Shown here piece by piece: positions 26,762 through 58,721 of a DNA stretch of 64,000 nucleotides. The notes beneath the pieces are model-generated. The model searched no databases, was not told where the DNA came from, and saw nothing but the letters and a program-made list of their open reading frames with translations. The position numbers and the translations under genes were made by a program. The DNA comes from Dactylellina haptotyla. Its lineage: Eukaryota > Ascomycota > Orbiliomycetes > Orbiliales > Orbiliaceae. Numbering within the stretch: position 1 is the stretch's first letter; every line of letters begins with the position of its first letter. The stretch covers positions 806,001-870,000 of the forward strand of contig CM062385.1 in the NCBI GenBank assembly GCA_031310005.1, read 5' to 3'.

Positions 26762-27217
26762 TTACTGGAGTATTCGGTTAACCGGATATGATCAAAAAAA
26801 AGTTAATTCGATTCTGTAGCCTCAAAACAAGCAGTAAGATCTGTTCGTTTTCAGGGACAATGGCCAAATATATCGGCTGGAAAGAGGCATCTAGTGTAAA
26901 GATTTAATATCGAAGGAAAGAAAAAGGCAAGCCCGTTGCTTAAATATCTTTCCCGCGAGAGGGGAAGGCGTAAATATGGGCTACGCTGTTGCTAGGCACA
27001 TAGGCCTTAGAGACAGATGAACTACGGCAGACGTATTCCAAGGCGAATATACAGAGTATATTGAAATGCTGAATGGTCATATGTACAAGAAGAGGTCGTA
27101 TCCACGAGACGGACTCGGCCAACCTAACACGAAGCCAATCTCGAGAATTCACCTGCAAGTGTATAGTCGATGTAGTCGATGTATAATTGACGTAGTCGAG
27201 GCGATTGATCCTCAAAA
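26762..27217. other. Short spacer between helicase 5' end and mS41 3' end
   Basis: A 456-bp stretch upstream of the helicase start and downstream of mS41. It should carry the helicase promoter and the mS41 3' UTR. No gene is visible. Confidence 0.6.
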
Positions 27218-27797
27218 TCACCTGTTGCCCATAATCATAGCCGCTTCCTCCTTCTTCCGCTGCTCTCTCCTCTCAGCAATCCTCCTCAAAGCCCTGACCA
27301 TCTTCTTCCGCCTCTCGCCACCGTCAACTTTCACGCCCCTCTTATACTCTGTCGGCTCGATCCCGTTTCTGTACCTCTCCCTCCAATCGATCAGATACCG
27401 CCTGTCCCTCGCAGGCTCGATGCCCATATCTCGCAGCTGCTGGGGGGTGGTGCCCATGAAGTGGTCCCAGTCGGTGAACTTGGATTCGTGCTGGATCATG
27501 TTGCGGCCGATTTTTGTGAGGAAGGTATTGACGTCCGGAGCGGTGGAAGAAGCCTAAATATGCGCACTGTTAGCATCAATATGCTCTCTCGCAGGTGGAT
27601 AGAAGTTTCGGGAGTAGATCGTACGGCGGGAATGGGTCGCGCTTCTCGCGAGTGGTGGAGTAACCTCGCATGGTTAAAGCTCGGGAGGAGGAAATTGAAG
27701 ACCGACGGCCTGGTGGCAGTGAAGAGCGGCCGTAAACGGTTCTGCGCGGACAAGTTAGACGATATTCTCTCCTCAATCGAAGGAGCCCTCTTACCAT
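27218..27797 (-). CDS. Mitochondrial small-subunit ribosomal protein mS41 (Fyv4, IGR motif)
   Basis: Three exons, 27797-27795, 27741-27625 and 27553-27218, give 151 aa. The introns are 53 nt (GTAAGA, TCTAACT branch, CGCAG) and 71 nt (GTACGA, GCTAAC branch, TTTAG), both phase 0. The first coding exon is only the ATG, followed directly by the donor. The N-terminus (MNRLRPLF, then Arg/His-rich with no acidic residue until SREAR) fits a mitochondrial targeting peptide. The core contains TFLTKIGR, HESKF, and then LRDMGIEPARDRRYLIDWRERYRNG, the IGR motif that defines the family. The basic C-terminus would contact rRNA. It acts in the mitochondrial ribosome. It shares a 215-bp intergenic region with the CDK7 gene on the other strand. 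The IGR call is firm; the spliced start is inferred from splice consensus and phase. Confidence 0.87.
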
Positions 27798-28012
27798 GCT
27801 GCTGTGACTGTGCTTCTGCTGCTGCTTCGATCGAGTCGAGATGCGTCGGCAATGTTGATTCGAATTTGATGTTGTCGGCGCCCAGAAATTTTCCGACGTT
27901 GCGGGCGACGTTATCAACACAACGTGCTCGCTTCAACCCTCCACGACATCCCATCCGCCCTCCTCCAAACCCTACGCCGCCGACGACCTCGCCTCCAAAC
28001 GCATCCTTCGTG
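27798..28012. promoter_or_regulatory. Shared bidirectional promoter of mS41 and CDK7
   Basis: Only 215 bp separate the two divergent start codons, so both promoters and both 5' UTRs must lie here. This couples a mitochondrial ribosomal protein with the TFIIH kinase. The minus strand is open across this stretch and into the CDK7 coding exon, which can mislead gene finders into one long mS41 start. No sure TATA box is visible. Confidence 0.7.
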
Positions 28013-29426
28013 ATGAGCGCGACAGCTGGTTCTTCCGCCTCATCAGCCCTCCCCGCGGCCGGTCTTACGAAGAGGACGCTGCCCTTCGGCAACGGGCACA
28101 CGCCGGTTCCCTCGTTTGGTGCCGAGAATGGCGATACCAGCAGCCAGCCAAAGGACGAGTCTGATGTCTCCGATAATGATGACCCGGACGACTTGAACAC
28201 GAGGACGAAGCGGAAATACACCAAAGGTACCGACTATTCGCACCTAGTTATCATCTAGATAATATATCCAATTCTAACAGTCTTCTCGTTGTGCAGACCG
28301 CAAGCTCGGAGAGGGAGCCTACGCCGTCGTCAATCTCGGCCACCGCCGCGCGACTGCCTCCGAACCTGCCGTCCCCGTCGCCATCAAAAAAATGAAGATA
28401 AACACCGAATTCCGCGACGGCCTGTCCATGGACGCTATCCGTGAAGTCAAGTACCTCCGCGAGCTGCACCACCCAAACATCATCGCCCTCTTGGACGTGT
28501 TCAGCTCGAAAAACCAGAACCTCTGCCTCGTGCTCGAGTTCCTCGTGGGCGATCTCGAAATGATCATCAAGGACAGCTCCTTAACGCTGAGCATGGCGGA
28601 CGTGAAGAGCTGGATGCTGATGAGTTTACGCGGGCTATGGTGGTGTCACAAAGCGTTCGTCCTACATCGCGTATGTATCATGTCTACCACCATCGCAGCT
28701 TAACCGTCTCCTGGGACCACGTATACTAATACTAAAAACCCATCATAGGATATAAAACCCAACAATTTGCTCCTCTCGTCAACAGGTATCCTCAAACTTG
28801 CCGATTTCGGTCTTGCTCGTTCCTTCTCCGACCCTTACCGCCCCATGACCTCCAACGTCATCACCCGCTGGTACCGCCCCCCCGAACTCTTCTACGGCGC
28901 GAAATTCTACTCCTCCGCAGTCGACATATTCTCCCTCGGCCTCGTCTTCTGTGAACTCATGCTCCGCACCCCTTTCCTCCCTGGAAACACCGACCTGCAC
29001 CAAATCGAACTCATCTGCCAAGCACTCGGTACCCCGAACGAAGATAACTGGCCAGGCGTGACGACCTTACCCGGTTATCACAATGTGGACACCGGCGCGT
29101 CCGTGAAGGAGCGTGGGAAAGATTTCTTCATGAACACCTTCATCGCGGCGGGCGAACCGGGAGTTGATCTGCTGATGAAGATGATACGCCTGGACCCGCG
29201 GAAACGGTGCACGGCGCGCGAGGCGCTAGATGCAGCCTGGTTCTCGCAGGAGCCGTATCCGACGAAACCGGCGAATCTGCCCAAGAAAGGTGGCGGCAAG
29301 GGGATCGAGAAGGTCGGGAGCGATCTTAAGAGGAAAGCTGGCGATCTGTTCAACAGTAAGGAGGAGACGAACGGGCGGGGGAAGAAGGTTGCCAGGAAGT
29401 TGGATTTCGGCGGCGGCGGGGGTTAG
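28013..29426 (+). CDS. TFIIH cyclin-dependent kinase, CDK7/Kin28 orthologue
   Basis: Three exons, 28013-28226, 28297-28670 and 28749-29426, with introns of 70 and 78 nt (GTACCG, GTATGT) give 421 aa. It phosphorylates the RNA polymerase II CTD within TFIIH in the nucleus. Seen: Gly loop GEGAYAVV at 76-83, catalytic Lys102 in VAIKK, a Kin28-type cyclin-binding helix ending DAIREVKYL, HRD 195-197 split exactly by intron 2, DFG at 215-217, activation-loop Thr230 in MTSNVITRW, and LGTPNEDNWPGV. It is longer than yeast Kin28 because of an acidic N-terminal arm of about 70 residues and a basic Gly-rich tail. The APE motif reads PPE, as in some other CDKs; the rest of the T-loop favours CDK7 over CDK9. 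Confidence 0.93.
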
Positions 29427-30842
29427 AAACTTCCTCCGAAGGTCAATTCGAAACCTATGTTCGGAGAGAGTTGGGACGCTATGCATGATGGAGGGTAAGC
29501 CCTACGGGACCCAATGGACCCCCACAGTAGAGGGGTAGCTTGCTTGCCCACACGAGCTCGGGCGGCGAGAGATAACCCACCTGGTCGATAGGTTTGCGGA
29601 GCTTGTTCGTCCTGACGATGGGCCGTCGGAAATTCTTAGAATTATCTTTGCAGCAATCCCGCGACGAGGGCATCATATATTAAACCTCATTCTTGGAGAC
29701 ACATTCGACACTTATATAGGATAGAGGTATTTTCATCACGGCGTACAAATTGCACCTGGCGTTATTACTGGAGTTTTTCGGTGGATAAAGCGACAATGAT
29801 AACCTTAAATTTTATTTTATTTTTATTTATTCATTATGCTCCGCTCAAGACATGTACGGGTACTATTATAGTTTGTATAAAACGAACGAGATATAACAAT
29901 CAAATCAAAGATACACTTCTCACTAAAAAGAAGAAATATAATCGCACGAGGTCTAGAACACAAGAGGGACCACAAAGCCAAGTAAAGATTTAAAAAGTAA
30001 CAGTATCAAAAAGGCCACCCGATCCCCTCGTTTAAAATCCGAGGAGGTGTTATAATTTTTTCATATTAAGGCATAATGAAGGAAGAAAAGAAAAAAGGCG
30101 TCGCAGTAATGCTAAAGCAAAGTATATACAGTGAATATAAACGAACAAAGCTCGAATTGAGTCAACAACCAAAAAAACCATTGTAGAAGAGAAAGAGTTT
30201 AAAGGGAGACAGAAGACCAATAATAAAAATGAAGAGTTTAAAGCTATAAGCTAATCTGGCTTCGAATACCACGCACACACGCGAACAAGAAAATCACATG
30301 AATCGAAAAGTATAGAAAATGAACAGGTAACAAAAAATGTAAATTTAATAAAAAAAAACTCCACAAGCAGCCGTAAGCTCCGGTAGTGAATATGATTTCT
30401 TTCCCTTTCTTTTTGAAACAGTTTTTCAGGCAAGTAAAAGTAGGCAGGTAGTGTAATATGAAGGCGCGATGAGCAATGCGGCGAAAAAAAGTATGAGCCC
30501 ATCAGGTCGAAACAAAAAGCTGAAGGAAGCTGATGTGGCAGGGGGAAAAAAAACTAATAAACAGCGAATGTAAAAAGAGGTTTTTATCTCAAAGGCGACA
30601 GCATGAGAAGCTAACTCCATCCCAAATGGAAAAGGAACGATAAAGAATGAAAAAGCTCAAAGTAAAAAAAAAGTGACGACCATCATCGAATCAATTAAAA
30701 GGGCGATTCGTAAATGAAAATAATTGTTTGGGACGTGATGTTTCCATCTTCACAGATATTCAAAGGATAACTGGAAGAAGAGGAAATAGTTTCCATCGTC
30801 TTCTTAATCCGGCCAAGTATCCAATCATCAACGCACTGCCGC
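29427..30842. other. Spacer between convergent CDK7 and kinesin genes
   Basis: A 1.4-kb AT-rich stretch holding the 3' UTRs of two convergent genes. Numerous short A and T runs, no frame worth calling. Confidence 0.6.
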
Positions 30843-31130
30843 CTACGCCAAAGCAGTGCTGATGATCCACCAGACCGTCAAAATGATCATGGCAAACTTA
30901 GTGGCGGTCCAATCGCTAGATTTCGTCCGCTGCTGGACCGAGGGTCCCGCACCTTGAACATCCTCCCCTCCTCTTGTTTCCTCGACCATCGTCGTATTAT
31001 CAATGTCAATAGTGTCAATCGTAACCGTATCGGTCGTCGTAATCGTCAAAGCTGGTGAATATGATCTGTCCCAATGAGCAGGCGTAACAAACTCCTCCTT
31101 CCTATGTTCGTAGCGGATCACTTCCGTTCC
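30843..31130 (-). other. Open frame continuing past the kinesin stop: possible tail-anchor exon
   Basis: The kinesin reading frame stays open for 95 further codons after its TGA at 31131-31133. The stretch is Thr/Ile/Asp-rich, then polar, and ends with a 17-residue uncharged segment (FAMIILTVWWIISTALA) right before the stop, like a C-terminal membrane anchor. A 105-nt intron (31156-31052, donor GTATGC, acceptor TTCACCAG) would remove the TGA and keep frame. The first ATG inside the tail comes only about half-way, so it is unlikely to be a separate gene. Confidence 0.45.
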
Positions 31131-33999
31131 TCACGCTGTGATAGGCTCGAGCATACTATCCGGTAAGCTCATAACGCTTGCTTTCTTCCTTGCTGCTAAC
31201 GATTGAGACGAACTCCTGACCGGGGGTACGGGTGTGCGTCTGACTGAGATGTTCAACGGTTTGACTAACAGTAGCTCCTCTTCATCCTCAGCCACTGGGT
31301 TCCCTGTGAGATCCCCAGATTTGCTCTTTATCGGCGGCGATAAGGGGTTCGTAGATGATGCACGACGCTTCGAGCTCAAAAGGTCGTCGATGCTCTTAGT
31401 TCTGACCTTCAGGACCTTGAGATCTGCCAACTCGCGTTTCCTCGCAGAACTTCGTAGTGCGGAAACCATTCTTTCCTTGTCGTCGAGTTGAGCGCGGAGG
31501 TTGGCAATCTCGGAGTCCTTCTCACGGATAATTGATGCCAGAGATCCTTCGTCACCGGTGCTGGACATTCGAGGCGAATTGGCGATTGAGGTTCTGGATT
31601 GCGATGCCCTCCGGGCTTGAAGAAGTCGCTTCTCAAGAGTTGAAATATATCGCGACTTATCAGCATTATCAGCTTGCAGAGCCTTGACCTGCGCGGCCAA
31701 AGTTGCGTTACCATCTCCGTATTCACCAGCATTATCGTCAGATCCAGGATCTGAAGGCAAGAACTCGGGTGGGGGACCGATCGAGGCGAAAGTAGACTGC
31801 GAGAACGTTCGCGGGACAGCCTGAGGCCCGTGTCCTCCTGGTGCTGTAGAGTAGGTCGATGACCTAGCGGAGAGTAAAGTCGAGTTATGGGGGTTTCCAG
31901 TCGTAGTGTTGACACCAGACGATTTCGAGCTCAAGATCAGCCGATTTAGATGGTCAATTCGCTCCTTCAAGGCGGTTCTCGCGAGCTGGATCTCAATCAT
32001 CTGCTCCTCGTGGCGCTGCGCCTCCTGTTCCTGTGTATCCATCTGTGCTTTAGCCTGCAACTCCAACTGTCCTCTCAACTCTGCGATTTCGTGTCGATAT
32101 CTCTCGAGAAGAACCTTGCTTCCAGCATCCGTAACGAGGGCTTCCTCGGCCTTCTTTGCGTGCGAAACAATATTGTTCTTCGCTCTGGCGGCGAATTTCA
32201 AGGTATTCAAACTCTCCAAGTTGTTCGCATCCGTGCTCGAGGCCATCGTACATAAAATACTGATAAGACTGCTACCGGACAAAGCAGGCTGAAGCAGACG
32301 GGTGAGCTTGCTGTCTCGATACGGCAAGTGGTCCTTGTTCTTGTCATCCTTGGCCTGGGAAAGTCTGGCAATAACGTTTCCGAGCGTGAGCAGGGATTTA
32401 TTAATGTGGGCGCCCTCCTGTCGACGTTCCTTGGTCTCGGCCGCTCGTTCCGAACCAGCCAAGTCGATAAGAGAGAGGGTCGAGACTCGGACACCACCGA
32501 TCGCGCCTCCCGCCGCCGCCTTGCCATCGAGAGGGGCACCACCACCAATGATACGCTCTCGACTCTCCACTACGATCTGAACGACGGCGTGAGATCGCGA
32601 CGAGCGGGCGTTGAATTGTGTCGAACCCGTCTTTCGCGCGAGATCACCCCTTGCGATCACTCTGAGAAGCTGTGTGGGCGACTGAACAATTTCTTCCTTG
32701 AGAGGCGTGGCATACACCCCTCGCTTGCTATCCTCGCGTAGCTTAATTTCCTCTACATTCTGGCCGAAAACACCGGCACCGCTATTCTGCGCCGGGGAAA
32801 GCAGGTCGTGGATCTTCTCGTTGTAGATTTCTAAATACGAAACTCGGAGCAAAAACTCTCGGTGGGGTGTTTCTCTAATGAAAGAGAAAATGTCCGTAAC
32901 GGCTAGTGGAATGACACCGGGGTTTTCAGAAGTTCCCTGTTTGGTTACTTTTTAGTACACACGGTTCGGTCTCAGAACGGAAATTGGGGAAAAAAGTCCC
33001 AGGATGGAACGCAAACGGATAAGCGTCCAGCAAGAACGTACCTGCATAGAAAATGTTTTACCAGTACCGGTCATACCGTACGCAAATACGGTACCGTGAT
33101 AGCCCTCCATCACTCGGCGAACTAACCGTTTGCAGCAGGATTCATACACTCGAACATTGCTGTCCCGTGGCGCAAAGACGTTGTCTAGAAGTAATATAAA
33201 GAGTTAGCACGAGCACGCCTCAGGGGGGAGGGTCTTCCAAGAGCCTAGAGGGATGGCTTTTTCCTTTAAACTCACCCAAGTAATAATCTCCACCTTCCTT
33301 CCCGTTATATCGCACGAGCGACTTTCCAGAATCCACGGTCCAATCCGTACCCTCTTTGCCAGCTTCACCGGCGGGTCGAACTCTGATGGAGACTAGGACG
33401 TTGCCTTTGCTTTTCTCGTCGTCGCCACCCATCGCACTTGGACTCCGGCTACCGCTGTTACTATCAAACATCGGTGCTTCGAGATGATTGCCGAGTTGGG
33501 AGGAAGATCTGCTGAGGGGTGGTGAAGGCGGGACGGCCTCGTCCGGGCTCAAGCTCACACCTAAACCTTCTTCCTTCTTTTTGATACCGGCCACGTTCAA
33601 GGGAAATCTGCCCTTGGGATTTAAACTGCTCTTCCTGGCACCTGGAAGTATCGGCGAGGCTGGAGCAAGGGAGGAAGCTCTTCTGTTACCAGCCACTCCG
33701 CTGCCACCGGGTGCGAGGGGCGATGTGGGCGGTAGTGAGAATATCCTCGTTGAACCGGCTACGTTGCGTTCTGATTGTGTTGACAGTCTGTTCGGGCTGA
33801 CCTTGTCGGATTCTTCTCGTAGACTGGCATAGGAGGATGGTCGTTTTAGAGATTTGAGGGAGGATATGGAGGAGACGGATGCCTTTCTGGAGGCTGTCGA
33901 AGGGGGGTGGGGAAGTGCGGAGGTTGGGGCGGGAGATGTTCGTGGGAGGGACGATCTAGCGCCGCCGGGGCGGGGCAGCGTGGTCGTCTGCGTAGCCAT
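31131..33999 (-). CDS. Kinesin-7-like motor, Kip2/Tea2/KipA type
   Basis: Exons 33999-33276, 33184-33042 and 32936-31131 with introns of 91 and 105 nt (GTGAGT, GTACGT donors) give 890 aa up to the TGA. The Ser/Pro-rich N-terminal arm (about 200 aa) precedes the motor, which begins VLVSIRVRP. The P-loop GMTGTGKT is at 278-285 (usual form GQTGSGKT), switch I is NARSSRSH, and switch II is DLAGSER, so the motor should hydrolyse ATP and walk on microtubules. Downstream are coiled-coil stretches and a Ser-rich tail. The long basic N-terminal arm and internal motor point to the Kip2/Tea2/KipA group, which carries polarity factors to microtubule plus ends. The frame continues past the stop (see separate entry), so the true C-terminus may differ. 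Confidence 0.9.
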
Positions 34000-36900
34000 G
34001 GTGAAGGAGGGTGGTGTGCTAACGAGGAATTCTCCTCAGATGTGTGGCGAGATGCAAATCGTGAAACTGGATATTGTTGTTCTTCGTCGTTCGCTCGTCT
34101 GACAGCTGATAAATTGAGTATATTGGGGATTACGGTCGCCGTTCGGATATAAGAGATAAAAAAGCTGTTCTCTACTTTACCGCTCTTTCTTATGTTTTAT
34201 TTTTTCGTCGTCAGTAAAAGGCACCGCTCAGAGGAGGGGGATATCGAATTCGTGGTCTGGTGGATGTGGAGATTAAAAAACCGGGACAAGTTTGGTAGTC
34301 GAAATGAGAATGTTTGGTCAGAAGTTCGTTCGCGGCGGCGCTAAAGCAACGGGTAGGTCATGTCATAAGGGACGGCGGCATCCGGCTTTCAATATTAATA
34401 GCACACAATAGCCGTAGTCGATATCCCTTTCGAGTAGCGGGAGGGTATACAGCAAAGAGCAGTATCCGGTGTATGTGTGCGTCAGGGTTGCTGTCAAGAT
34501 GGAGGTTTTGTTAGCGCTTGAAAATATAAAAATTGTAAAATCGAAAGAATTATTGGTATTATTAGTAAGAAGGAGGACGTCTGTTTTGTTGTGTTTATCG
34601 AAAATTGCGTTTGACGTAAAACAGGCACGCCTCCCTTCGACGGCCAGCAACCAAGCAAGCAAGAAACAGGCATGCACGTATTCTACGTCTAGAGGGCAAC
34701 AGGGGGAAGGTCCCTTCGTACCGCCGCTTGGCCGTAGCAGCAATGAGGCAAGTCGCAGCAAGGCGAGAGCCCGCATCGGCCAGCCAGCAGAGACTAGCTC
34801 GCTGGCGAATGGTAGTGGCAGGCAAGGGAAGAGAGGCAGAACGATGGAATGAGACAGACAGGGGGGCAGGGCCGGGTCTAATGGTAATAAATCTCGTTTC
34901 TCAGAGACAGGACGAGGGACGAAGAGCCAACCTACCGAAGAAACACCGCCTGTCGTCTCGTAGCGGGACACTAGCGAGAGTGGTTGATCGAGGGAAGGGA
35001 CGAGGAGGAGAGCCGGATATCCGCTTGGAGATGGTTGCGACGATAGCGGCGAGTGGGTGGTGCGACCTCCAGGCGACGATTGATTGACTAATTAATTGAT
35101 TGATTTATTTGATTGACTGATTTGATTGATGAGAGATCGAATTTCGATAGTCGGATGGCAGGCAACGAAGGGGGCGCAGAATTCGGTCGAATGCGGTATT
35201 GAGGTTATATAAACCAGATGGAATGGCGCCGTTCGTTCCACTTGGTGCAACAGAGGAAGGCCTTAAGTTATGTTGTGTGTTCGAATTCTCCTAATTATAA
35301 CAGAGCAATACGGCTATTTGATAAGCAAGGGACGAAATACGACGAAGAACCCGGATTAAAACGTTTTCGGGGCGTCTTCGAGAATAATATAACAGAACGG
35401 AAGGAAATCGAAGAGGCGGTGAACGTTGACAATGGCAAGGTCGCGAGAAAAGACCCTGCTGGGTGTTGTCGGGGCTCGTTTCAGGTTGAGAGGAGGCAGG
35501 TCGCAGGACAGCCGAACGATGGTCTGATATCCTCTGCTCTGTACGACTTGCGCTACGTCCTATCCATGCAGGTGTCCGGCTCGCATGAACGTGAATGCGA
35601 CGGATACGGCAAGAAGGAGAGAAAGGGAAAAGGGAAGATACGATGCGGAGACGGAGGTAGGAGTGAGAGGTGGAGTGGGAGTAGGAGGAAGGAGAAGGAG
35701 GAGCGATAGGAAGATAAAAGGCAATCGATCAAATCACGACTCCGATCGAGTCTGTGTGTCAATGCAATAACAATCAGACTCGGCAGAACGGGGGTCGGTT
35801 TGGTGAGGCCCAAGAACGAAAGACACGGGCTAACCGGTCTGGTCCGCTCGCAGCTCGACTACTCGATCCTGGGCCACTGGTTGGCCACTGATGCAATTCA
35901 GCTGGTGTCTACCCCTATATGCAGGCAGCGAATATCCGAACGAACAGAATTTGTTCAAATCCACCAAAAGGATCCCGTCGCTGCAGGTCTGAGAAACAAA
36001 GGAAAATAGTGGATCTCGATCGCTTTCGCACCTCCAATTGCAATCAACCTGCTCGTCGACCTGGACAGAAACCCCACAGGGCGGATGCGCAAGAGGCCGA
36101 CAAGGGTGGGAAACAAATAACAAAATCAAGAAGCTTGAAGCAGAAGCAAAGGGAACATACCCGAAATACGTCCGTGAAGTCAGTCGATAATAACTTTTCT
36201 GAGTCCAGCAGAAAGGGAACAAAAAGAAGTAAGTATCTGTGGCGGTGAATGTGGTAATTAATGCGCAAGAACAGCAAAGAAGAAGAAGAAAAAGACGGCT
36301 TTCGAAATATCGATATGTCGGTAGAGGCTGTTCCGGTGGCTTGAAACTTTTTCCCAAGTTTTTAATAGCGCCCCCTCCTGTTTATGAAGCCAGAAAAGAT
36401 CCTCTCCTGTGCATTTAAAACCCCAAGAGAATCCCTTTTCTTGCTGGCAGGAAATAAAGAAGAAAATATAAATTACCCCTCTTCAAAGGCTCCCAGGAAT
36501 GTTGATATGCATGTGCCTTTCTCTCAATAGGGCCTGTTCCGAATCTACGTTCGAAAGTAAAACAAAAGGGTTGAAAATGAGAATAAAAAAGAGATGTATA
36601 AAGACTATATATCTCAATAACGTAACGGAAATAGCAGCAAGAGGAGGGAGAGGAAAAAGTAAGGCTTCAAACCAAATAAGGGATCTTGGAAATATCCAAA
36701 TTGCAGGTTGATAGCAGGCCGTTTTAATGCCTACTCGGGTAACAATCTACCTTCACCCAAAAACAGCTATTCTTGGAAAGAAAATCCTCAAGAAAAAAAT
36801 ACCTCTTGCTTTAGATCCGTTATTCTCCCAGCAAAATTCAGAACGATCCTTCTTTCAGGTAGCTTAAGAAAGAAAGTTAAGGGGAATCAAAGACATGCAG

Positions 36901-42870: not shown

Positions 42871-44172
42871 ATGTCGTTCAACCTCACCGCTTCCTCGCGC
42901 ATCAAAAAGCAGCCGCCTGGCGCCGCTGCCCGTCGCAAGAACCCGCTCAACCAGCTGCACCGCAAGACCTCCTCCCCCCGCAAGCCCGCCAGCGCCAGTT
43001 CCACCCCGCCGCTCTCTTCCTCCTCGAGAAGCTCTTTCTCTTCCTCGCTGTACTCGCCCGGCTGGCCCACCGACTTCTTCACCTCGGCCGCCCTCCCCAC
43101 TAACGTCCTCGAAGCTATCACCTACGTTCTCAAATATCAGTTCACCCCGCTCCCGGAGACTCTCACCGGCCTCGGCCTCTCTCGTGACACTATCGCTGAT
43201 ATTCTCAACTTCCGCCGTGCTCTCCCACCTGTCGTTCCCTTGCCCCATCTGCACTCTCTCCTCCCCTCCCCCACCGAGACGGAGCGTGCAATCACCGCGT
43301 TCGTAGCAGACGGGACCCTCCGTCGAGTGCACATCCGCACCGGGAACTCCACGCACCTCGAAGGCGTCATGCAGACAGATGAGTTTCTAAAATCCATCGC
43401 GCAGAATACCTCTCTAGAAGAGGATACCAAAACTGCACTATTGGATCTCCTCGGTGCGGATCCCTCGTTATCAGCTATCACCAGTGATGAAAATGCAAGC
43501 AATTCGCTCCCCAAAGATGCCATAATGAGTCTCCTCTCCGCCGGCTTCCTGACCATAAACTCCTCTTCGTCATCCTCCCACTCTTCCGAGAACCTCACTG
43601 GCGGTGGTGGGATCGGTAACGGTGGGGTGGTAGTGGCAGGTCCAGTCGTGGATATAACAACCCTAACCCCCACCACCGCCATGAAATCGTTGAACCACCT
43701 CCCCCAAGAGAAGGATAACACTCACATTTCAACCTTGGCCTCACTAGCCTCTGTTTCCTCCTCCTCTCGAAACGGCAACCTTCGTACCAATTATAATAGT
43801 AGTATCGTTAATAGTACGCCCGCGAGCAAAGGAGGGGTGATAGAGTATACCCTCACCCCACCGCACCTGGGCCTCCTTACACACCTGCACACTTCCTCCA
43901 AGTCACACGTGTTGGATATCCTACGTCATTGTTCGCACCGGGAAACCACGATGGCGCATCTACGTGAGCGCTGGGACGGCGGGGTATCCAAGAACCGGAA
44001 TAAGACTAGGAAGAGGGGAGTGGAGGTTCAGTTCGAGGGGAGGACGAGGAAGTGGAAGGAGTTTAAAGGGTTGACGGTTGATTGGGTTGTTGGCGGGCTG
44101 ATGGGGATGGGTGTCGTTGAAGGGTTCGATACGGCGGTTGGGAAGGGGATTAGATTGGTCAAGGGGAATTGA
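42871..44172 (+). CDS. STK19-like winged-helix protein
   Basis: A single exon of 433 aa. After a basic Ser/Pro-rich arm (about 1-70), the block starting LPTNVLEAITYVLKYQF, with RRALPPVVPLPHLHSLLP and AFVADGTLRRVHI, matches the start of the STK19 family. The C-terminal block (about 320-425), HLGLLTHLHTSSKSHVLDILRHC and the closing VDWVVGGLMGMGVVEGFD, matches the end. Between them lies a low-complexity Ser/Gly insert (about 220-310). The family was first described as a kinase but shows no kinase motifs here; human STK19 is a tandem winged-helix DNA-binding protein linked to transcription-coupled repair. A nuclear DNA-binding role is therefore inference from family. It converges with the MARVEL gene, 357 bp apart. 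Confidence 0.72.
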   Translation: MSFNLTASSRIKKQPPGAAARRKNPLNQLHRKTSSPRKPASASSTPPLSSSSRSSFSSSLYSPGWPTDFFTSAALPTNVLEAITYVLKYQFTPLPETLTGLGLSRDTIADILNFRRALPPVVPLPHLHSLLPSPTETERAITAFVADGTLRRVHIRTGNSTHLEGVMQTDEFLKSIAQNTSLEEDTKTALLDLLGADPSLSAITSDENASNSLPKDAIMSLLSAGFLTINSSSSSSHSSENLTGGGGIGNGGVVVAGPVVDITTLTPTTAMKSLNHLPQEKDNTHISTLASLASVSSSSRNGNLRTNYNSSIVNSTPASKGGVIEYTLTPPHLGLLTHLHTSSKSHVLDILRHCSHRETTMAHLRERWDGGVSKNRNKTRKRGVEVQFEGRTRKWKEFKGLTVDWVVGGLMGMGVVEGFDTAVGKGIRLVKGN

Positions 44173-57473: not shown

Positions 57474-58721
57474 CTAACTTCGTTCGATGTCGTAGCAGAG
57501 TGTGTCGAACTCGTTTGCGAATTCCTCGGAGGCCGATCGGTGGATCGTCTGACGGTAGCTCATCAAGCGGGGCAGATAGTCCCTCCCCGCTCTAGGTATT
57601 CTTCTCATGGCGGAAATAGCAAAGTGATTGTAGTCCTCAGAATAGGTCCTGATCAGCCGTGTGAAAAGATTGCCTTCTCTTGCGGTTTCCCCAAACACCT
57701 CGACATAACGTGGCCTGTAGTGGATATCTGGAGTTTCAAGGTCCATCTCGATAACTGTTTCGAGCATTGTCATGAGGAGACCGAAAGCTCGTAGTTGGGT
57801 ATCTTCGGATAACTCCTCGCGCTGCCAGATGGCATTTTCGATATCGTAGACGTATCGTCGCAGCCTGTTTGACACCCAAACAACATTCGGGGCGGTAATG
57901 TTATCAGGGTGGGTGTCGTCGTCTCTGTAGTCCAGGCGAGGCTGTCCAGTCTTGGTGTAGTTTATCCATCGTCGGAAGGTATCATCGATTTGGCGGCCGA
58001 GTCTCCTGAAGTAAGATTTCGTGGACGGATCTATAGGGGCTTCTTCTCGGAGGTCAGCGAAAAATCGGGGCTTCGAAATAGCTAATCGGTAAACCGCACC
58101 TCTGAGTGATGGGGAGGTAGACAGATAATCATCTGTGTATTGGCTGGATGGGTAATCGACGACCCCATCAAGGTGCTGAAGCATATCTCGAGTTTGAGCC
58201 GGTTTACCCCAATCTGCGGACCCCGAGAAGACCCAGTCGTTTGCGTGTGCAAGCTCAGCGAGGCCAGCTGCTCGAATTTGATAATAAGGTGCTGTATGGG
58301 ACCTGAGACCGTGCCCGTCGTATCGAAGAGGAAGCGAACGCTCAGGACCGTCTGTCTCTTCGTCACGGTAGTTGAGAAGATTATCTAGAACCCAGAAGAT
58401 ATGACGGCATGCCCTTTGCGAGTCCACAAAAGCGGGACAAGTGCAAGTTGGATACTCGTATTTTGAACCTTCTGGGCCTATCCAAACTTTCGATTTCTGA
58501 GGCTCTAAGAAGTGGTCTTCCTGGCGGTAAGCAGGAACTAAATTGAAAGAGAAGTGGTTTCCTTCTTTGCAGGTAACATGGTACATCGATTTAATTCCAT
58601 CTTTAGCCCATGCCCACTGGTCCTTGGTAAGCCATTTGTTGTTATAATTCGCAGCTCTTCCTTGAAGGATTCGAATAGGACTGCTTTGGCGGCCGCGGCC
58701 AATCGAGGATGAACTCGCCAT
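57474..58721 (-). CDS. SWIM zinc-finger protein
   Basis: A single-exon protein of 415 aa. The one recognisable domain is a SWIM finger at about 90-112 with Cys93, Cys95, Cys105 and His107 (pattern CxC-x9-CxH, followed by IFWVLDNLL). SWIM fingers bind zinc and are found in proteins that contact DNA or other proteins, including MULE-type transposases, ubiquitin ligases and the Shu-complex protein Shu2/SWS1. No transposase catalytic core, RING or SWI/SNF domain is present. Residues 150-415 are mostly helical and charged, with no family I can name. The ATG at 58721 follows an AT-rich leader. It may be one of an expanded fungal family of stand-alone SWIM proteins; function unknown. Confidence 0.78.
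   Translation of the reverse strand: MASSSSIGRGRQSSPIRILQGRAANYNNKWLTKDQWAWAKDGIKSMYHVTCKEGNHFSFNLVPAYRQEDHFLEPQKSKVWIGPEGSKYEYPTCTCPAFVDSQRACRHIFWVLDNLLNYRDEETDGPERSLPLRYDGHGLRSHTAPYYQIRAAGLAELAHANDWVFSGSADWGKPAQTRDMLQHLDGVVDYPSSQYTDDYLSTSPSLRGAVYRLAISKPRFFADLREEAPIDPSTKSYFRRLGRQIDDTFRRWINYTKTGQPRLDYRDDDTHPDNITAPNVVWVSNRLRRYVYDIENAIWQREELSEDTQLRAFGLLMTMLETVIEMDLETPDIHYRPRYVEVFGETAREGNLFTRLIRTYSEDYNHFAISAMRRIPRAGRDYLPRLMSYRQTIHRSASEEFANEFDTLCYDIERS

Follow-up and report, generated by a model that had tools for sequence, protein, structure and literature searches.

The 64,000-nucleotide (nt) stretch of the Dactylellina haptotyla genome analysed here (the window, to which all coordinates refer) carries on its minus strand a gene for a putative kinesin-7. 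The 3′ end of this gene appears to lie at 30843 and not at the in-frame TGA at 31131. The stretch past the TGA is probably translated, or was translated until recently, as the C-terminus of the motor, and its hydrophobic end of 17 residues would be able to serve as a C-terminal membrane anchor. We put the probability of this reading, with all of its parts taken jointly, at about 0.8. From the features described below we infer splicing, translation and membrane insertion of the tail, and the membrane would then hold a motor whose family is plus-end directed.

The TGA (31131–31133, minus strand) is followed by GGA and ends a form of the protein of 890 amino acids (aa). Beyond it the kinesin frame is open from 31130 to 30846, for 95 codons, and closes with a TAG at 30845–30843. 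This reopening of the frame, pointed out in an earlier note on the same DNA, was confirmed from the sequence and its frames. The genome uses TGA as an ordinary stop, with 17 of the 52 predicted genes that have a stop ending in it. Openness alone is weak evidence for coding, as 3 of the 155 frames downstream of other predicted genes have equally long open runs (at least 95 codons).

Composition was evaluated using a small gene finder that combines a 4th-order, phase-specific coding model with models of donor, branch, acceptor and length. It was trained on the window together with 200 kb of the genome, the kinesin locus (30400–34200) being masked, and training settled at a set of 55 genes and 75 introns. 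The consensus of the training introns was clear (donors GTAAGT or GTATGT, branch CTAAC, acceptor YAG). The composition of the tail is coding-like. Over the 285 nt past the TGA the coding log-odds in the kinesin frame are +15.3, a value below which 40% of coding windows score and which none of 617 open noncoding window-frames of 285 nt reaches. The 155 frames downstream of the 52 other predicted genes all stay below +5 (the best is 3.6). Past the TAG, the next 203 nt give about -20 whichever of the three frames is read. The candidate terminal exon (30843–31051, minus strand), which ends in the TAG, scores +10.7 over 206 nt, and this is matched by 0.014% of 21192 noncoding window-frames and by 0.13% of the 1570 open ones. 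Given the score of +15.3 and the absence of any downstream frame at +5, it is very probable that the tail belongs to the coding sequence of the kinesin.

Some observations weigh in the other direction. Two frames on the strand opposite the 206-nt tail exon are also positive (+6.2 and +2.7, compared with +10.7 in the kinesin frame), and the 890 aa of the form ending at the TGA are close to the 889 aa given for Aspergillus nidulans KipA in passages of PMC8950801, a weak point as the regions are variable. A search for relatives of the kinesin in IMG/VR and GTDB genomes gave 4 and 25 pattern matches, respectively, and no relatives by tblastn. Chance alone might also give a 3′ untranslated region an open frame with coding-like composition, and the tail could be such a case. 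Two of the 52 predicted genes are followed in frame by an open run of 94 codons or more, and the site was chosen for its openness, which, together with the positive opposite strand, would suit this explanation. However, the gap between +15.3 here and the +5 that no downstream frame attains makes it unlikely.

The 95-codon tail has no Pfam family, and when matched against the genome it returned one match, itself. The whole window gave no match to Rfam at the gathering threshold. On the plus strand, opposite the tail exon (30846–31051), we observed an open frame of 95 codons at 30771–31058.

The last 17 residues before the TAG (FAMIILTVWWIISTALA; 30846–30896, minus strand) are uncharged and hydrophobic, as the earlier note had described, with a Kyte-Doolittle mean of 2.11. 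Apart from the last part of the protein, no 17-mer exceeds 1.35. If the tail is translated, the protein would carry a single hydrophobic segment at its C-terminus and none elsewhere, the pattern of tail-anchored proteins as judged by hydropathy only. Kyte-Doolittle hydropathy thus supports the proposal of a C-terminus sufficiently hydrophobic to act as a tail anchor; having no residues behind it, the segment would be a short anchor. The genome has other segments of this kind, and they are not rare: the C-terminal 17-mer is more hydrophobic in 3 of the 52 predicted proteins, and an uncharged 17-mer of at least 2.1 occurs somewhere in 13 of them. We identified no CAAX box in either form of the protein (the last five residues are STALA or EPITA, with no cysteine at -4). 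A KASH ending was not seen by eye, and no motif search was made.

Two readings of the join between motor and tail stand at near-even odds. In the first, a 105-nt intron (31052–31156, minus strand) is removed together with the TGA. This pair, GTATGC...TTCACCAG, has GT-AG ends and keeps the frame. It was selected by the gene finder, which could not read through stops and makes open models only; the resulting protein has 951 aa, and the spliced model exceeds one ending at the TGA by 4.35 nats. We found 21 in-frame GT-AG pairs of 42–159 nt that span the TGA, and the 105-nt pair scores highest. Its donor (4.3) and acceptor (3.2) are ordinary (training medians 4.7 and 3.7), and its signal sum is 7.39, with weaker sums in 8 of the 75 training introns. 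Overall, the splice-site pair is usable but weak. The earlier note had drawn attention to the equal length of intron 2 (33041–32937), which is correct, but we give it no weight.

The same note had offered a 69-nt alternative (31066–31134, minus strand; GTGAGG...GGACAG). This does keep the frame; however, its signal sum of 2.55 is below those of all 75 training introns. A 33-nt intron (31134–31102) is too short and weak, and an 83-nt intron (31134–31052) breaks the frame. The 20 remaining in-frame pairs that span the TGA were rejected on score (scores are listed for 12 of the 21).

Several results count against the 105-nt intron. Its branch sequence, TGCTCAT, is weak, and its total score is exceeded by all but 4 of the 75 training introns. 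Among 2099 exon codons, in-frame pairs with an equally good total span 5.0%, and pairs with equally good signals span 2.8%. In addition, the interior is coding-like in the kinesin frame, at +0.057 per nt with the stop left out. The mean for the 75 training introns is -0.055 (2 of 75 are as high) and that for 2073 exon pseudo-introns is 0.058; with the stop counted, none of the 75 training introns is as coding-like. The in-frame coding score is -14.7 for intron 1 of the gene and likewise -14.7 for intron 2. In other kinesin genes of the genome, five introns could be placed in the seven gaps between matches that this check covered, all in motor domains, and all five are negative (-1.5 to -9.1); two of the seven gaps gave no pair. 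The likelihood ratio of a real intron to an exon pseudo-intron is 0.53 for signals and 0.060 for content, or about 0.03 jointly. The decoder that picked the training introns itself uses content, so that the content test is biased against the intron and the contrast is exaggerated. The proposal of a TGA-skipping intron made in the earlier note stands as to frame, and as to its selection by a self-trained finder to which the locus was masked, but it is weakened by the coding-like interior.

In the second reading there is no intron. The frame would be unspliced, and the TGA would be a single-base nonsense change or a base error of the assembly, leaving a truncated motor of 890 aa with a tail that is a recent relic of coding sequence. 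The tail would then be coding just as proposed above, and only the join would differ. In favor of this, both flanks of the TGA and the entire would-be intron are coding-like in one frame, and the joint ratio of about 0.03 also counts for it. Against it, a rare event is required, and the noncoding bias of the training introns inflates the contrast. Introns with a length divisible by three and at most one in-frame stop are comparatively common (10 of the 75 introns, in 55 genes), whereas the share of genes with an in-frame stop was assumed to be 0.5–1%. The two readings come out near even because the ratio of 0.03 is offset by this prior, and these odds rest on the assumed rate. Narrowly favored as the join is constitutive splicing of the 105-nt stretch as an ordinary intron, with a product of 951 aa. 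We consider this a tentative reading that falls somewhat short of an even chance, and the unspliced frame a contender of much the same standing.

The coding tail might also be reached without an ordinary intron or a lesion. The earlier note suggested two regulated isoforms, a soluble motor when the intron is kept and a membrane-anchored motor when it is removed. Weak splice signals and a stop within an intron of 3n length would permit such a switch. The intron would not be an exitron, however, as the retained form of an exitron lacks a stop codon by the definition in an excerpt of PMC10985678, whereas the TGA lies inside this one. There is no evidence of any kind for two regulated isoforms, and we consider them very unlikely. 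The fuller proposal, in which a soluble plus-end kinesin-7 is accompanied by a tail-anchored form, made by removal of the stop-containing 3n intron and tying plus ends to the membrane of the growing tip, would be less probable still.

Functional readthrough or recoding of the TGA, for which the open and coding-like continuation would speak, is the least probable of the explanations considered. In Ustilago, according to passages of PMC4207609, efficient readthrough needs UGA followed by CU, and the context here is UGA-GGA; readthrough, another suggestion of the earlier note, is not supported. The same passages exclude selenocysteine in fungi, which argues against recoding. Conversion of the stop by A-to-I editing would match one of the preferences described for Fusarium graminearum in part of the text of PMC11156358, as A or G is favored after the edited A and a G follows here. 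However, U precedes the A in more than 70% of those sites, and here the preceding base is G.

Upstream of the join, the gene model was obtained by Viterbi decoding with the locus masked in training. It begins with an ATG at 33999 and has exons at 33999–33276, 33184–33042, 32936–31157 and 31051–30843, all on the minus strand. Exon 1 (33276–33999) encodes a Ser/Pro-rich N-terminal extension that, searched alone, had no match in Pfam; judging by its motif, the motor probably begins in this exon. Intron 1 (33185–33275; 91 nt, GTGAGT...CTAAC...TTCTAG) lies at the upstream edge of the kinesin match (G000:C7:838175-839188). Within that match are exon 2 (33042–33184), which encodes part of the motor domain with the sequence GMTGTGKT, presumably the P-loop, and intron 2 (32937–33041; 105 nt, GTACGT...AAACAG); the match contains one stop. 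Exon 3 up to the candidate donor (31157–32936) encodes the rest of the motor domain, the stalk and the tail, based on Pfam and PDB matches. Also present near the N-terminus, in exon 1, are three S/T-x-L-P motifs (residues 6, 16 and 27), which resemble the SxIP motifs that bind EB1.

The open reading frame (ORF) at 31131–32951 has the Pfam Kinesin domain (PF00225, E=1.1e-69), and the motor domain is in the N-terminal half of the protein. Among the best 60 of 156 PDB matches, CENP-E chains rank first and second (161.8 and 160.7 bits), and the next kinesin is KIF13B (138.1 bits). The gene product is thus probably a kinesin-7 (Kip2/KipA/CENP-E type), an assignment made from the best PDB match and not from a tree. 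The genome (39.8 Mb in 11 contigs) gave at least 19 kinesin matches in a whole-genome Pfam search; judged by their positions, these represent about ten genes. Among the kinesin ORFs compared with that of the window, the nearest (L026) is a kinesin-8. Another kinesin gene of the genome is a kinesin-1, with a best match to 1goj (presumably the Neurospora crassa kinesin) at 555 bits. Such a kinesin set is in line with a filamentous ascomycete.

Kinesins held on membranes are known. Dictyostelium Kif9 is anchored in the nuclear envelope through a transmembrane domain of about 23 residues at its C-terminus, as described in sections of PMC11816917 and PMC7140473. It resembles the protein predicted here in being a kinesin with a C-terminal membrane segment but belongs to another kinesin family, and those sections describe no isoform switch for it. 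A survey of plant kinesins lists transmembrane segments among extra domains in its figure and table legends (PMC1434745). Among the titles and abstract openings of open-licence literature that were listed, we found none reporting a fungal kinesin that ends in a membrane segment, which is not proof that there is none in print. The earlier note knew of no description of a tail-anchored Kip2/KipA-type kinesin as a direct link from motor to membrane; with Kif9, attachment of a kinesin to a membrane through its own C-terminus has a described precedent. A membrane-anchored kinesin-7 would be new, whereas a kinesin with a C-terminal transmembrane domain would not.

Fungal kinesin-7 motors (A. nidulans KipA, Schizosaccharomyces pombe Tea2 and Saccharomyces cerevisiae Kip2) share the motor family with the window protein, by best PDB match, and KipA is also similar in length to the form ending at the TGA. 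The word "transmembrane" occurs 0 times in the available text of a review of fungal kinesins (PMC8950801). Human CENP-E, of the same kinesin family as the window protein, carries a C-terminal farnesyl on a CAAX box that is used in expansion of the kinetochore corona, and orthologues of CENP-E with a CAAX box are known from the clade that comprises fungi and animals (from portions of PMC10630089). There the attachment is a lipid on cysteine, unlike the hydrophobic peptide proposed here, and both forms of the window protein lack a cysteine at -4. Ustilago Tpi1 and other proteins similarly have a targeting signal behind a UGA (passages of PMC4207609). In our case the readthrough context is lacking, and what follows the UGA would be a membrane anchor in place of a peroxisomal signal.

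Other genes were identified in the window. A protein kinase, which we take to be CDK7-like, is encoded at 27066–29426 on the plus strand (Pfam Pkinase on 28749–29426), and its 3′ end faces that of the kinesin gene. Also on the plus strand is a one-exon gene at 42871–44172 with the Pfam domain Stk19 (E=1.7e-55). A predicted one-exon gene at 57474–58721 on the minus strand encodes 415 aa and has no Pfam match at E 0.001; its stretch CTCPAF...CRHIFW recalls, in our view, a SWIM-type zinc finger.

The meaning of these features depends on the fate of the tail. If the TGA is a lesion, the finding would amount to either an error of the assembly or a truncation at the level of the strain. A translated tail would give Dactylellina haptotyla a kinesin-7 that bears its own membrane anchor, and this would be relevant to the way in which the hyphal tip holds the ends of microtubules. 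It would also represent a third route to a greasy kinesin C-terminus, beside the farnesyl of CENP-E and the anchor of Kif9.
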